Positions 5,349-58,988 of a stretch of 64,000 nt of DNA are shown here, one piece after another. Below the pieces are notes generated by a model, which saw only the letters and a program-made list of their open reading frames with translations, had not been told where the DNA came from and did no database searches. The position numbers and the translations under genes are program-made. Position 1 is the stretch's first letter. Each line of letters opens with the position of its first letter. This DNA comes from Bacillota bacterium (GTDB lineage: Bacteria > Bacillota > SHA-98 > Ch115 > JABLXJ01), in assembly GCA_013178125.1 (NCBI GenBank), contig JABLXJ010000011.1, positions 1 to 64,000 of the forward strand, written 5' to 3'.

Positions 5349-6848
5349 GTGAAAAAGTATATTCTCTCGATCGATCATGGGACGACTGGCACAAGGGCTA
5401 TATTGTTTGATCGATCTGGAGCAGCCATCGCGCGGGCGTACAGGGAATTATCTCAAATTTATCCGCAGCCTGGTTGGGTTGAGCACAATCCCGAAGAAAT
5501 CTGGAATATCACTGCCTTTGTGATCAAGGAAGTATTGAAACAGGCTCAGGTTGGGCCCGCGGATATAGCGGCTATAGGTATCGCAAATCAAGGTGAGACA
5601 GTAGTCGTTTGGAACCGTTTCACTGGTAAGCCTATCTATAATGCAATCGTGTGGCAGTGCCGCAGAACGTCATCACTATGTAGCAAGTTGGTTGAAGAGG
5701 GGTATCAGGATAAGATACAGTCGAAAACGGGGCTTGTCATCGATCCATATTTTTCCGCGACCAAGGTTCAATGGATCCTCGATAACGTGCCCAATGCTAG
5801 GGTGCAGGCGGAGAACGGTGAATTGCTCTTGGGAACTACGGATACATGGCTTGTCTGGAAGTTAACCGCAGGCCGGGCCCACCTTACAGATTACTCTACT
5901 GCATCAAGAACTATGATGTTTAATATCCATTCGCTTGAATGGGATCAGGAGATATTGGACCTTTTATCGATACCTCGAGTGATGCTTCCTAAGGTCGTTT
6001 CGTCAAGCGGAGTATGTGCTAAGACAGATCCTTTTTTATTTGATGGACAGAGCATGATAATCGCCGGGTTGGCAGTAGATCAGCAAGCCGCTTTGTTTGG
6101 GCAGGGATGTTATGAACGTGGAATGCTCAAATGTACCTATGGCACGGGGAGCTTTATGCTAATGAATACAGGAGAGTCCCCCGTCAAATCCACCCATGGC
6201 CTTCTAAGCTCGATAGCATGGAATATAAACGGCAGGATAAATTATGTGCTTGACGGAGCAATCTATGTAGCCGGGGCTGCCGTCCAATGGCTCAGGGATG
6301 GACTCCGGATCATAGAGAATGCGTCTCAAACGGACGAGCTTGCCTCTAAGGTGCCAGATACCGGAGGAGTATATTTCGTGCCTGCCTTTGCCGGATTGGC
6401 CGCCCCATATTGGGATACCAATGCTCGTGGCACTATAGTTGGTCTCACCAGGGGTACTACCCGGGAACATCTCGTCAGGGCGACCCTTGAGTCTATTGCT
6501 TATAGAGTGCGGGACGTGGTTGCTGCGATGCAGGAGGATTCAGGTATCAAGATAGAGAAATTGAGAGTAGATGGAGGGGTAACGGCCAATAAATTTTTGA
6601 TGCAGTTTCAAGCCGATATTTTGGGTATTCCTGTGGAATTACCGCCAATCGTCGAGACCACTGCTCTAGGGGTTGCTTACCTGGCCGGTCTGGCTGTCGG
6701 ATATTGGGATGGCATAGATGAGATTAAATCCCGGTGGAGAGCAAGGGAGAGATTTGTTCCTAATATGGGCGAGGAACAGCGTAGTAAGCTATATGCAGAG
6801 TGGAAGAGGGCCTTGAACCGAGCGAAGGGGTGGGCGGTTGATATTTGA
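5349..6848 (+). CDS. Glycerol-kinase-like FGGY carbohydrate kinase
   Basis: A 499-residue FGGY kinase very close in length and sequence to GlpK, which phosphorylates glycerol with ATP. The phosphate loop IDHGTTGTR, GlpK segments IVWQCRR, IDPYFS, TYGTG.FMLMNTG and VPAFAGLAAPYWD, and the catalytic Asp in AVDQQAALFG are all present. One key residue differs: GlpK's NQRET motif reads NQGET, so the substrate-contacting Arg (Arg83 in E. coli) is Gly82 here, while the equivalents of Trp103, Tyr135, Asp245 and Phe270 are kept. It may therefore act on a larger polyol or related substrate. GTG 5349 has GGAGGGG upstream. It is co-directional with the DeoR regulator and ends before a clear terminator. Confidence 0.85.
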   Translation: MKKYILSIDHGTTGTRAILFDRSGAAIARAYRELSQIYPQPGWVEHNPEEIWNITAFVIKEVLKQAQVGPADIAAIGIANQGETVVVWNRFTGKPIYNAIVWQCRRTSSLCSKLVEEGYQDKIQSKTGLVIDPYFSATKVQWILDNVPNARVQAENGELLLGTTDTWLVWKLTAGRAHLTDYSTASRTMMFNIHSLEWDQEILDLLSIPRVMLPKVVSSSGVCAKTDPFLFDGQSMIIAGLAVDQQAALFGQGCYERGMLKCTYGTGSFMLMNTGESPVKSTHGLLSSIAWNINGRINYVLDGAIYVAGAAVQWLRDGLRIIENASQTDELASKVPDTGGVYFVPAFAGLAAPYWDTNARGTIVGLTRGTTREHLVRATLESIAYRVRDVVAAMQEDSGIKIEKLRVDGGVTANKFLMQFQADILGIPVELPPIVETTALGVAYLAGLAVGYWDGIDEIKSRWRARERFVPNMGEEQRSKLYAEWKRALNRAKGWAVDI

Positions 6849-54355: not shown

Positions 54356-55816
54356 TCAGCCTTCACCTCTCAACCATGCGGCGATCTCTTCTTCACCAGG
54401 ATCTACCGGGTCTGCCTTAAGGCCGGGTATATACCTTGTAGCCTCGTAGAGGACCGGCGCAACATTCCCGTGGACGCACGCCACATGGTGTATGTACGGC
54501 CCCTTTATGAATTTCTCTTCCCACTTAGGCCAGTCGTTGACCTCGACCCAAACGTAGGTGCCCCTGGTCATCGGCCCGTCCACACCGCGGCCGTGGCCCA
54601 TAAGGAGCGAGTACTGGCCGCCGTCGCCGTCGAACCTGGTTATCGTGATGTCACCGCCCCTGATCTGCCACTCGCAAACACCAGGGCATCCATTCTCCTG
54701 GGTGTAGTTTCTATCTACCCTCGCATGGGGGGAATTCTCCGCCTTAAGAGAGAGCGGGAACGGCCCACAATGCCATATCAGTTCAGCGTTATCATTATCA
54801 GGGTGCCTGATCGTAAGATCTGCGAAGAATATAGGGGTCTCGCCCATCCGGGCGGCCTGGGCCATGATCGCCGACACTGCACCATGAATATCTGTCTCAC
54901 ATACGACAGGAAGTCCCGCATCAGTAAGCTCCGCGTTGGCGAAACAAGGCATGATGCCGAGCGCGTCCTGAAGCGCACTCCAGCATTGAATTGCAATCGC
55001 GCTGCACCCTTCCCCGGTTGCCCATTCTTCCATAGTGAGCTTTAGGGCCGCGATTCGTTTGATAATCTCATCGTCAATGTTGTGAAATTCAACTTTGCCC
55101 TTGAACTCTTCTACAGTTGTCTTCAGATTAGTATCGTTCTTTGCGATTCTAGAGTTGACGGAATTTACGATCTCCACTAGACTGATGGGCACAATTTCTA
55201 TCCCGAAGCGTTCCAGGAGCTCTCCCTCGTTGACCATGACGGTCCAGAAAGCTGCGGGTCTTGTGCTTATTTGACCGATCCTCAGGTTTCTAAATGCCTT
55301 CACAACGGCTGACGCAGCCAAGAAATTCTTGACGCCCCTCTCAAATACAGGGTCATTTAGCCGGCTGTTGACGATGTATGTGAACGGAACGCGAAGCCTG
55401 CGAAGGATCTTGCTCGTCGCAAACAGGCCGCACTGGGTGTCCCTCAGCCTCATACCGTCCGGAAGCGGGGCCTCGTCGCGCGGCCCCCAGAGGAGAAAAG
55501 GCTTGCCCATAATCTTTGCAAGCTTCGCTACGGCATCCTCCGTGCCAAAGTTGCAGTGGGGGCTGAAGACAGCATCCACGTTTTCCTCCTTAAAGCGTTG
55601 CGCTATTTTGGGGGCGTCCGCCGCATCATATAACAAGCCTTCCTCGTTCAGCCAATCGATGGTTATGAGCTCTATCCCCCAGCCCTTGAGTTTTTCCTCC
55701 GTGAGCCGCTTGTATTTCGCTGCGTCCTCCTTGCTAAATATGTTTCGACGAGTGGGTGCATATCCGAGCTTGATCTTGTGACGATTAGCAGTTAGACGTG
55801 TAGCATATGTAGCCAT
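54356..55816 (-). CDS. L-fucose/L-arabinose isomerase-fold protein (3 of 3)
   Basis: A 486-residue protein with the superfamily's central region AIAIQCWSALQDALGI, then FANAELTDAGLPVVCETDIHG, carrying the metal-ligand Glu in CETD. HCGPFPLSL and a late VHGN follow. It is smaller than FucI and belongs to the broad uncharacterised isomerase group. On the minus strand ATG 55816 has GAGGAGG 11 bases before it. It is the last gene of cluster D, 93 bases after the URO-D pair, and likely converts the imported sugar or a product of the URO-D step. Confidence 0.8.
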   Translation of the reverse strand: MATYATRLTANRHKIKLGYAPTRRNIFSKEDAAKYKRLTEEKLKGWGIELITIDWLNEEGLLYDAADAPKIAQRFKEENVDAVFSPHCNFGTEDAVAKLAKIMGKPFLLWGPRDEAPLPDGMRLRDTQCGLFATSKILRRLRVPFTYIVNSRLNDPVFERGVKNFLAASAVVKAFRNLRIGQISTRPAAFWTVMVNEGELLERFGIEIVPISLVEIVNSVNSRIAKNDTNLKTTVEEFKGKVEFHNIDDEIIKRIAALKLTMEEWATGEGCSAIAIQCWSALQDALGIMPCFANAELTDAGLPVVCETDIHGAVSAIMAQAARMGETPIFFADLTIRHPDNDNAELIWHCGPFPLSLKAENSPHARVDRNYTQENGCPGVCEWQIRGGDITITRFDGDGGQYSLLMGHGRGVDGPMTRGTYVWVEVNDWPKWEEKFIKGPYIHHVACVHGNVAPVLYEATRYIPGLKADPVDPGEEEIAAWLRGEG

Positions 55817-55909: not shown

Positions 55910-56947
55910 CTATTGGGATCGTGCGATCTCTATTAGCGCAACAATATTTTCAACGGGTACATCGGCCGGAATGGCGCCCGCCGAACTTAAGATATACCCG
56001 CCACCGTCCCCCAGCATATGCATGACTTCTCTAGCCGTCTTTCGGACATCATCACTGCTCCCATACCTCAACGTACTTTGGGCGCCGATACCACCAAAGA
56101 GGCAAATATCTTTTCCCCACCGCCTCTTTATTTCATACACATCCATACATTCGGGTTGCACGGGATTAATGACGTCCACCTCAAGCTCAACGATATCTTC
56201 GAATATTTCAAATACGTCCCCACATGTATGGATGAATACGGGGAGGCCCGCCTTGTGGACTTCCGCATACATCATCCGGAGTCTAGGTTTCAAATACCTG
56301 CACCAGTAAGTGGGCCCCATGATCAGGCCCTTCTGCTGTCCCCAGTCTTCCACGAAGCGTATCCCGTCAATATTGAATCTGGAAAGCTCCCTGATTAGGG
56401 CGATATTGAACTCAAGGGCCATATCAAGCAGGTCATTTACGAAGGTAGCGTTTCCCCCAAAATCGCAGAGCAGGTTCTCAAATCCGCGAACATGCCATGC
56501 TAGATCAAAAAGGCCGAGCAAGCTTACCACGACCATCCTGTCTTGGTGTGCTTGAATAAAGCTGGGTAGATGTTCAAACCGTTTAGGATCTCGCGGGTCT
56601 GGGAGTTTGAAGGTGCTAAGATCAGGTTCCTTCAAGGGGAAGTCAATGATGCCTCCCCAGTCTCCCATGTCACGCCACTGACCTTCCTTACGCCAGGTGA
56701 CGCCGAATTCGTCGCGCACAAGGTCTGGATCCTCTGGGCGCGTAGTGGAGTCGCCCGAACTCGTCGAAGCTTCGGCGATGTCAACTCTAGCAAGATGATT
56801 ACCAATGAAATCTTCTACGTCATGAATAGGTACTCCGTAGTACGCCGCGATTCTTCTTGCAGTAGCTCGGGTGAGGTCGATATGATACGGAATTATGTCA
56901 GAGGTCTCGTGTTTTATGGCTCGCTTCACCCTTTCCTTCGGGAGCAT
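55910..56947 (-). CDS. URO-D/MtaA-superfamily protein, HxC type, late Cys absent (cluster D)
   Basis: A 345-residue protein starting MLPKERVKRAIKHETSD. It has the family segment EDWGQQKGLIMGP and His240-x-Cys242 (IHTCG). The later conserved cysteine is missing: where paralogs have 'PC', this one reads LSSAG, so metal binding must differ. ATG 56947 follows AAGGAG by eight bases; GTG 56956 is too close to that site. It is the second of a pair, 53 bases after the HxD-type partner. Confidence 0.83.
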   Translation of the reverse strand: MLPKERVKRAIKHETSDIIPYHIDLTRATARRIAAYYGVPIHDVEDFIGNHLARVDIAEASTSSGDSTTRPEDPDLVRDEFGVTWRKEGQWRDMGDWGGIIDFPLKEPDLSTFKLPDPRDPKRFEHLPSFIQAHQDRMVVVSLLGLFDLAWHVRGFENLLCDFGGNATFVNDLLDMALEFNIALIRELSRFNIDGIRFVEDWGQQKGLIMGPTYWCRYLKPRLRMMYAEVHKAGLPVFIHTCGDVFEIFEDIVELEVDVINPVQPECMDVYEIKRRWGKDICLFGGIGAQSTLRYGSSDDVRKTAREVMHMLGDGGGYILSSAGAIPADVPVENIVALIEIARSQ

Positions 56948-57000: not shown

Positions 57001-58068
57001 TTAGAGTTTCGTGCCCTCGACAGCTTCAAAGAAGGCCAATATATTCTCCCAGGGTACGTCGGGTTCGAGTACGTGAGTCGGGGCAATCACATAACCTCCG
57101 CCAGCCCCCAGTATCTCAATAGCCTCTCTTACCTTAAACCTTACTTCATCCGGAGTCCCAAAAGGCATGGTAGTCTGAGTCCCAATCCCTCCCCAGAAGC
57201 TTAAATCCCTTCCATATCTCCTTTTCAAGTTCGCTATAGACATGCATTCAGGCTGGATCGGGTTGAGTATATTTACACCAATCTCGATAAGGTCGGGGAT
57301 CACGGGTTCGATATATCCATCACTATGATAAGAGATAAAAACCCTGGGGTTAACCTTCTTGGCAGATTCAATGACTCTCAGAAGTCTGGGCTTAAACCAT
57401 TCTCTCCACATTTTCGGGCTCATTAGCATTCCCCTCTGGGTCCCGATATCGTCACCGACCCTTATAATATCCACCCCCGACTCTGCATAGCGTCGAGCCA
57501 TCTGACAACGTATCTCCGTGATTTTTTCAAGCAATACAGTCGCAAAATCCGGGTTAAAGGCTATATCCTCAAAGAGCCTATCCATCCCTCTCATATGCCA
57601 TGCTATTTCAAAGATAGTCCATTCCATGTAACCAATAACCGCGAGGCCCTGATTCTTATAGCGCTCAACCTCGGCATCGAGGTGAGCATGTCTATAATCC
57701 GCCATGATATCAGGGAAGGGGTATTCTTCAAGCTCTTTAACGGAACGCAACTTCGTCATCGGGTGTACAATATGGATGAAGTGATATTCCGATCCGGGAA
57801 TCTGGCCTACTCCCCATTCACCGATCTCCCACCCCGGATTATTTGGCATCGGTGGAACTTCGTCGTAGTATTTACTAAAATCCGCGGTCTCCCTGGGAGG
57901 TTTGAAATAAACCTCTCGCATTTCCATATTAAAATAGGTCGCCGGATCATCCGAGCCGGTCTTTGCTTTGAAAATATCAAGAAGAGGGGGCGTGAACTTC
58001 GCCTCCTTTGGCATTTTCTTGACAGTCTCATGATTTAGCACGGATAAAACCAATTCCCTCCCAGTAAT
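57001..58068 (-). CDS. URO-D/MtaA-superfamily protein, HxD type, probable ATT start (cluster D)
   Basis: A protein of about 355 residues with DDIGTQRGMLMSP, His248-x-Asp250 (YHSDG) and Thr in place of the late Cys (APTHVLEP). The first ATG-like frame start found by usual rules is TTG 58053, but the in-frame codons before it read TGREL, matching the MTSRER/MTPKER start of the paralogs. The codon in the start position is ATT (58068), nine bases after GGAGG; an in-frame TGA lies just upstream. ATT initiation therefore fits best. It is the first of the URO-D pair, right behind the permeases. Confidence 0.8.
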   Translation of the reverse strand: MTGRELVLSVLNHETVKKMPKEAKFTPPLLDIFKAKTGSDDPATYFNMEMREVYFKPPRETADFSKYYDEVPPMPNNPGWEIGEWGVGQIPGSEYHFIHIVHPMTKLRSVKELEEYPFPDIMADYRHAHLDAEVERYKNQGLAVIGYMEWTIFEIAWHMRGMDRLFEDIAFNPDFATVLLEKITEIRCQMARRYAESGVDIIRVGDDIGTQRGMLMSPKMWREWFKPRLLRVIESAKKVNPRVFISYHSDGYIEPVIPDLIEIGVNILNPIQPECMSIANLKRRYGRDLSFWGGIGTQTTMPFGTPDEVRFKVREAIEILGAGGGYVIAPTHVLEPDVPWENILAFFEAVEGTKL

Positions 58069-58085
58069 GGCCGTTCACCTCCATG

Positions 58086-58952
58086 TTAACCCTTAATAGC
58101 ACCGGACATAATGCCTTCAACGAATTGCCTTTGAAAGGCAAGGAATAGAATAATTAGGATTGACGCCCCGAGGAAGCTTCCCGCCAGAATCGGACCGTAT
58201 TGAATTTCTCTGTGGAGGCCTACTAACTTGGTGAGAGCCAGCGGTACCGTGAACATTCGGTCCTCGCTAAGCACTATAAGAGGCCACATGAAATTGTTCC
58301 AGCTGCTCATAAATAATATCAAGCCTAAAACAGTCAGCGCTGGCCGGCTTACGGGCACAATTATTCTATAATAAAGGCCAAAATCTGAGCACCCATCTAT
58401 ACGACCGGCATCAACAAGCTCATCTGGTATCGAATTCATGTACTGACGCATGAGGAATATACCAAATGGGTTGGCAAGGAATGGGACGATGAGTGGATAA
58501 TAAGTATTTGCCCAACCTAACTTGGCGGTAATAACAAACAATGGAACTACAATAGCCTGGAAAGGAAGCATCATGGTCGCTAGCATCAAGAAGAATAACG
58601 CATTACGCCCAGGAAAGCGATATTTAGAGAACCCGAAACCACCCATGGAGCAAAAAAGTAATGTCAAGGCGGTATATGTAGAGGATACAATTGAGCTATT
58701 CAGGACTGCCCTTCCAAACTTGGTTACCTCTAGTAACGTTTTGTAATTGGTCAATTTGAAACCCTCGCGAGGGAAAAAGGTGGGGTGCACAGAAAATATT
58801 TCGCTTGTATCTTTGAAAGAGCCGAGAAACATAAAGAGAAAGGGGTAGAGGAAGATTATACAACCCAGGATAAGCACCGCGTGTAGAGCAATTTTTGTTG
58901 CCAGGCTTTTGACTCGGTCTACCCGATTATATCCTGTCCTTATCGTCATCAT
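58086..58952 (-). CDS. CUT1 permease, MalG type (cluster D)
   Basis: A 288-residue six-helix permease. Helix 1 is ALHAVLILGCIIFLYPFLFMF, here ALHAVLILGCIIF and LYPFLFMF; the loop GSFKDTSEIFSVHPTFFP follows. The EAA loop (VDAGRIDGCS...IVPVSRPA) has a changed start but keeps the Gly-Cys-Ser core. The C-terminus FVEGIMSGAIKG is standard. ATG 58952 follows GGAGGAG; the in-frame ATG 58970 overlaps that site. Only 17 bases separate it from the probable ATT start of the next gene. Confidence 0.9.
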   Translation of the reverse strand: MMTIRTGYNRVDRVKSLATKIALHAVLILGCIIFLYPFLFMFLGSFKDTSEIFSVHPTFFPREGFKLTNYKTLLEVTKFGRAVLNSSIVSSTYTALTLLFCSMGGFGFSKYRFPGRNALFFLMLATMMLPFQAIVVPLFVITAKLGWANTYYPLIVPFLANPFGIFLMRQYMNSIPDELVDAGRIDGCSDFGLYYRIIVPVSRPALTVLGLILFMSSWNNFMWPLIVLSEDRMFTVPLALTKLVGLHREIQYGPILAGSFLGASILIILFLAFQRQFVEGIMSGAIKG

Positions 58953-58988
58953 GATTGCTAGCTCCTCCATTTTGGCTCTTTGATTGCC

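Follow-up and report, generated by a model that had tools for sequence, protein, structure and literature searches.

The window analysed here is the whole stretch of 64,000 nucleotides of contig JABLXJ010000011.1. Its minus strand carries a sugar cluster in which an ABC sugar permease gene is followed by two genes of the URO-D superfamily: gene A, an enzyme gene of the cluster, and gene B. The coordinates of these genes, of the features around the start of gene A, and of a second candidate gene from a related genome are collected in Table 1. The frame of gene A lacks a canonical start codon at its expected N-terminus, where an ATT triplet is found instead.

Table 1. Features of the gene A locus and of the glycosyltransferase gene with a similar start region
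Feature	Position	Strand	Remarks
ABC sugar permease, upstream	58086..58970	-	Stop codon 17 nt before AUU
18-codon out-of-frame ORF from ATG 58084, stop included	58028..58084	-	Weak Shine-Dalgarno pairing, -4.0 kcal/mol
Extended Shine-Dalgarno sequence GGAGGTGA	58075..58082	-	GGAGGT is complementary to ACCUCC at the 16S 3' end; -11.2 kcal/mol
Proposed AUU start codon (read ATT)	58066..58068	-	Initiator column of 70/82 homologs
TTG, first canonical in-frame codon	58051..58053	-	Likely automatic but truncated start; gap of ~2 nt to the end of Shine-Dalgarno pairing
URO-D-superfamily gene A, 355 aa from the proposed AUU, motif YHSDG	57001..58068	-	PF01208, 90.7 bits; pLDDT 95
URO-D-superfamily gene B, downstream, motif HTCG	55910..56947	-	ATG start, strong Shine-Dalgarno sequence, -12.3 kcal/mol
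Isomerase-like protein; SftI, a sulfoquinovose isomerase, is nearest	54356..55816	-	141.6 bits versus a cut-off of 700
Glycosyltransferase L154	L154:268-1503 = G002:C20:27308-28543	minus	Probable AUU start

Read on the minus strand, the start region consists of GGAGGTGA, ACGGCC, ATT and the codons ACT GGG AGG GAA TTG, which encode TGREL. The ATT (58068-58066) sits six bases after GGAGGTGA (58082-58075), with nine bases between it and GGAGG (58082-58078), and opens a frame of 355 codons that reaches 57001. The permease gene ends upstream with TAA (58088-58086). A TGA (58077-58075) lies in frame at codon -3, followed by ACG (58074-58072) and GCC (58071-58069); this stop is not independent evidence for the start, because it arises automatically from GGTGA at the given spacing. 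Between this TGA and TTG 58053, the frame contains only ACG, GCC, ATT, ACT, GGG, AGG and GAA, and thus no ATG, GTG or TTG. The first canonical codon is therefore TTG 58053-58051, and the purine run GGGAGGG (58062-58056) stops two bases short of it. An out-of-frame ATG (58084-58082) opens 18 codons up to a TGA at 58030-58028. All coordinates given in the preliminary description, which had proposed the AUU start, and its short overlapping frame proved correct, base for base.

Gene A matches the URO-D family PF01208 well above its gathering cut-off (90.7 versus 23.9 bits), and scores below the curated cut-offs of both TIGR01463 (MtaA/CmuA methyltransferases; 60.6 versus 235.4 bits) and TIGR01464 (HemE; 21.4 versus 302.95 bits). 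The predicted structure (pLDDT 95) has 4ay7 as its best match among solved structures (TM 0.69). Together, the sequence scores and the model point to an MtaA/UROD fold, with scores short of those required for the named subfamilies. In the alignment, APGCG of MtaA, whose cysteine we take to be a zinc ligand, stands opposite APTHV of gene A, so that the gene A site looks like H-x-D plus His332. This putative metal site, H-x-D...H (residues 248, 250 and 332) versus H-x-C...C in MtaA, is common to most homologs. The genome contains 32 URO-D-superfamily matches, a large expansion within one genome.

The N-terminus of gene A was compared with 82 homologs, comprising the best 80 of 214 loci from genome contigs and two loci from relatives (L101 and L102). 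In 70 of the 82, the column of the ATT holds a canonical start (65 ATG, 2 GTG and 3 TTG), and 11 of the other 12 have an ATG one to six codons upstream, which places a canonical start at or shortly before this column in 81 of these best 80 plus two loci. The single exception, L101, has CTT in the column and no canonical start nearby. The residues encoded upstream of TTG 58053 are also conserved in this set of the best 80 of 214 plus two: Thr2 is present in 49 of the 55 loci where BLAST aligned residue 2, Arg4 in 80 and Glu5 in 70 of the full 82. An AlphaFold model built with 68 sequences predicts a helix at residues 3-11, with a mean pLDDT of 97 over residues 1-10. Initiation upstream of TTG 58053 is well supported by the homolog starts, the three conserved residues and this helix, and no other part of the argument is as strong.

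This URO-D homolog from the same genus (L101/L140, G001:C149, about 6090-6190), which has no canonical start near its N-terminus, was considered as a second rare start and set aside, since a transposase-like frame adjoins it.

The single 16S rRNA gene found in the genome ends in ...GGAATACCTCCTTTCT. As 16S sequence was recovered in only 2 of the 17 class genomes, the anti-Shine-Dalgarno sequence used for pairing rests on this one gene. The usual bacterial 16S 3' end is GGATCACCTCC; at L120 (G000:C15:23614-25144) it reads GGAATACCTCC, either a true variant or an assembly effect. With the genome's own 16S tail, the Shine-Dalgarno pairing for ATT 58068 amounts to -11.2 kcal/mol at a spacing of 6 nt, an energy matched by 1.5% of 3000 random positions. 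The infC gene of the same genome gives nearly identical values (-11.3 kcal/mol, 6 nt), and the ATG of gene B shows -12.3 kcal/mol at 7 nt. As in genes of the infC kind, the Shine-Dalgarno sequence of gene A is thus strong and well spaced, and the homologous N-terminus is occupied by a near-cognate codon instead of a canonical one.

The conventional reading, in which translation starts at TTG 58053 and residues 1-5 are not made, can draw on a canonical codon with GGGAGGG in front of it (-10.7 kcal/mol). Only 2 nt separate this pairing from the TTG, as close as the preliminary description had held when it judged the codon too near to its ribosome site. Among 27 ATG homologs with strong Shine-Dalgarno sequences, spacing is at least 4 nt in 24, while 3 nt or less is found in 3, a precedent for the short distance. 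A start at this TTG would also drop Thr2, the nearly invariant Arg4 and Glu5 and cut the predicted first helix, again in line with the earlier claim, and it would depart from the 81 of 82 homologs that begin at or before the ATT column, the exception being the disturbed L101. We therefore regard the TTG as an improbable start.

Upstream of the TTG, ATT is the only near-cognate codon at a usable distance from the Shine-Dalgarno sequence. ACG 58074 is in frame and one base from ATG, but abuts the Shine-Dalgarno sequence directly (0 nt spacing), and 58084-58066 showed no slippery run or stimulatory structure such as would accompany programmed frameshifting out of the leader that begins at ATG 58084; either of these routes is extremely unlikely. 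RNA folding of 58009-58128 revealed no unusual stability (z = +1.39), so that codon and Shine-Dalgarno sequence are the only features that suggest regulation.

The ATT itself is private to gene A. It occurs at this column in none of the 82 homologs (best 80 of 214 plus two), the nearest of which are only 50-56% identical, and the paralog L002 has ATG there. In the documented cases of the infC kind, orthologs typically share the rare start, although this does not strictly define the group. Genome sampling comprised one further genome for genus and family together and 16 further genomes for the class. Among 398 genomes of the phylum, four, including the genome of gene A, contained a match at E <= 1e-110, and the others had none nearer than 53%. 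The stretches read of G001, G002 and G000-C20 contained no ortholog with conserved gene order.

Because the ATT is private, a sequence error is the main remaining doubt about the AUU start. The true sequence could be ATG 58068, a single substitution away, in which case the ATT would stem from a fault in assembly or sequencing or from a minority variant. Alternatively, a surplus base could hide an in-frame ATG 58084, since deleting a single base close to the ATT would bring this codon into the gene A frame (MEVNGH-TGREL), and 11 of the 82 homologs do start one to six codons upstream of the column. The assembly consists of 54 contigs. Against a surplus base, although not against a substitution, stands the weak pairing of ATG 58084 (-4.0 kcal/mol, 4 nt spacing) compared with the strong and well-spaced pairing of the ATT. 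The rest of gene A is intact, and infC demonstrates that AUY starts exist in the lineage. Overall, an error or variant appears unlikely, if somewhat less so than a start at the TTG.

The infC gene served as a control for rare starts in this class. It was located by tblastn in all 17 class genomes (L104 at G000:C1, start about 147478; L103; L105-L119), with a constant start site: the homologous start is ATC in 17 of 17, preceded in each by GG(G/A)GGTGA and six bases (GGRGGTGA-N6-ATC). Gene A has the same layout with ATT. This control yields a search rule, namely the Shine-Dalgarno pattern followed by AUY at the head of a long frame that offers no canonical start. In the 3.48-Mb genome of gene A, GGRGGTGA-N6-ATH occurs 17 times, versus 7 for a reversed control pattern. 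Of the frames that follow, those of infC (170 codons), gene A (355) and L137 (180) are long, and the other 14 open at most 37 codons. L137 was rejected as a new AUY start, as an ATG lies one codon before the ATH, which leaves infC and gene A as the only 2 of the 17 matches in which the layout leads into a long frame whose beginning carries no canonical start.

Across the 17 genomes, the ATT form of the layout has 26 matches, of which only gene A and L154 open long frames; the other 24 open at most 68 codons. Summed over these genomes, it is hardly commoner than its reversed control (26 versus 23), and in the genome of gene A alone the counts are 2 versus 5. The signal is thus the long frame and not the motif count. 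The ATA/ATC form in G001-G003 gave 21 matches, comprising three infC genes, three frames of 106-199 codons and 15 of at most 81 codons; the three intermediate frames, L182 (199 codons, with ATG at codon 11), L180 (126 codons) and L188 (106 codons), were not counted as new AUY starts.

L154 encodes a glycosyltransferase of 412 codons in a genome of the same order (G002) and reads IRILFVLQDIPYPPDNG ahead of its first canonical codon. Its ATT overlaps the TAG that ends another frame. Of nine plasmid relatives, two align from residue 1, and the annotated starts of both fall exactly at the ATT column, which makes an AUU start of L154 probable. The search rule thus picked gene A and this sister-genome glycosyltransferase out of whole genomes.

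Taken together, the homolog starts, the conserved upstream residues, the predicted helix, the energy and spacing of the Shine-Dalgarno sequence and the infC parallel support the proposed AUU start. We consider it likely that gene A is translated from AUU 58068 with a strong Shine-Dalgarno sequence, giving the N-terminus (M)TGRELVLS through weak, infC-like initiation. Ribosomes finishing the permease gene, or free 30S subunits, would be held by GGAGGT, which would place the AUU in the P site, where the initiator tRNA, though mismatched at the third base, could still decode it as formyl-methionine. The product would then keep its conserved first helix. Ribosomes ending at the permease may help initiation at the AUU, and initiation at so weak a codon is probably reduced and, as at infC, IF3-sensitive.

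Gene A resembles infC, which uses AUU, AUC or AUA starts, in its AUY codon, its strong Shine-Dalgarno sequence and the 6-nt gap after GGRGGTGA in the same lineage. In contrast, the infC start is invariant in the 17 class genomes and infC encodes the regulator itself, whereas the ATT of gene A is private. To our knowledge, very few genes other than infC have a documented AUU start; Binns and Masters reportedly described one in 2002 for E. coli pcnB, a chromosomal gene. Our literature search found no paper that pairs uroporphyrinogen decarboxylase with an AUU start codon. In S. aureus, infC (AUA), cvfC1 (AUU) and ccpN (AUA) combine a rare start with an extended Shine-Dalgarno sequence, and reporters with rare codons give about 10% of AUG output, or up to 30% for ccpN (PMC13009471). 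In cvfC1 and ccpN, as in gene A, an extended Shine-Dalgarno sequence carries the non-canonical start, but their codons are conserved and their initiation was mapped by Ribo-Ret (PMC13009471). In Streptomyces, a GTC start places sigR under repression by IF3; in this gene pair, the rare start keeps one member scarcer than the other (PMC5472188). For sigR, IF3 control and partner excess were both demonstrated, which distinguishes it from gene A (PMC5472188). By analogy with the S. aureus reporters and sigR, a lower output of gene A is expected, and control by IF3 is plausible.

The preliminary description had further suggested that the AUU sets the ratio of HxD to HxC subunits, which our results do not support. 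The aspartate of HxD is the family norm, occurring in 72 of the 82 loci (best 80 of 214 plus two), and a second URO-D-like region was found in the flanks of only at least 18 of the 82 loci, with flanks that vary in length and are often short. On this count, a fixed pairing of genes A and B is not a general feature.

Gene A thus probably joins the documented AUU starts with a strong Shine-Dalgarno sequence, alongside infC, pcnB and staphylococcal cvfC1. Gene finders restricted to ATG, GTG and TTG hide such starts; if the AUU is real, automatic annotation would set the start of gene A five residues too far downstream, losing an arginine that is nearly invariant. More speculatively, and with little likelihood in our estimate, an infC-type initiation module (GGRGGTGA-N6-AUY) may in this class precede a handful of metabolic and surface genes, among them gene A and the L154 glycosyltransferase, which IF3 level or initiation fidelity would tune together with infC; such a small IF3 regulon would escape gene finders. 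For gene A itself, a genuine AUU start would mean that enzyme abundance may hinge on a weak initiation codon and may be lower than usual.
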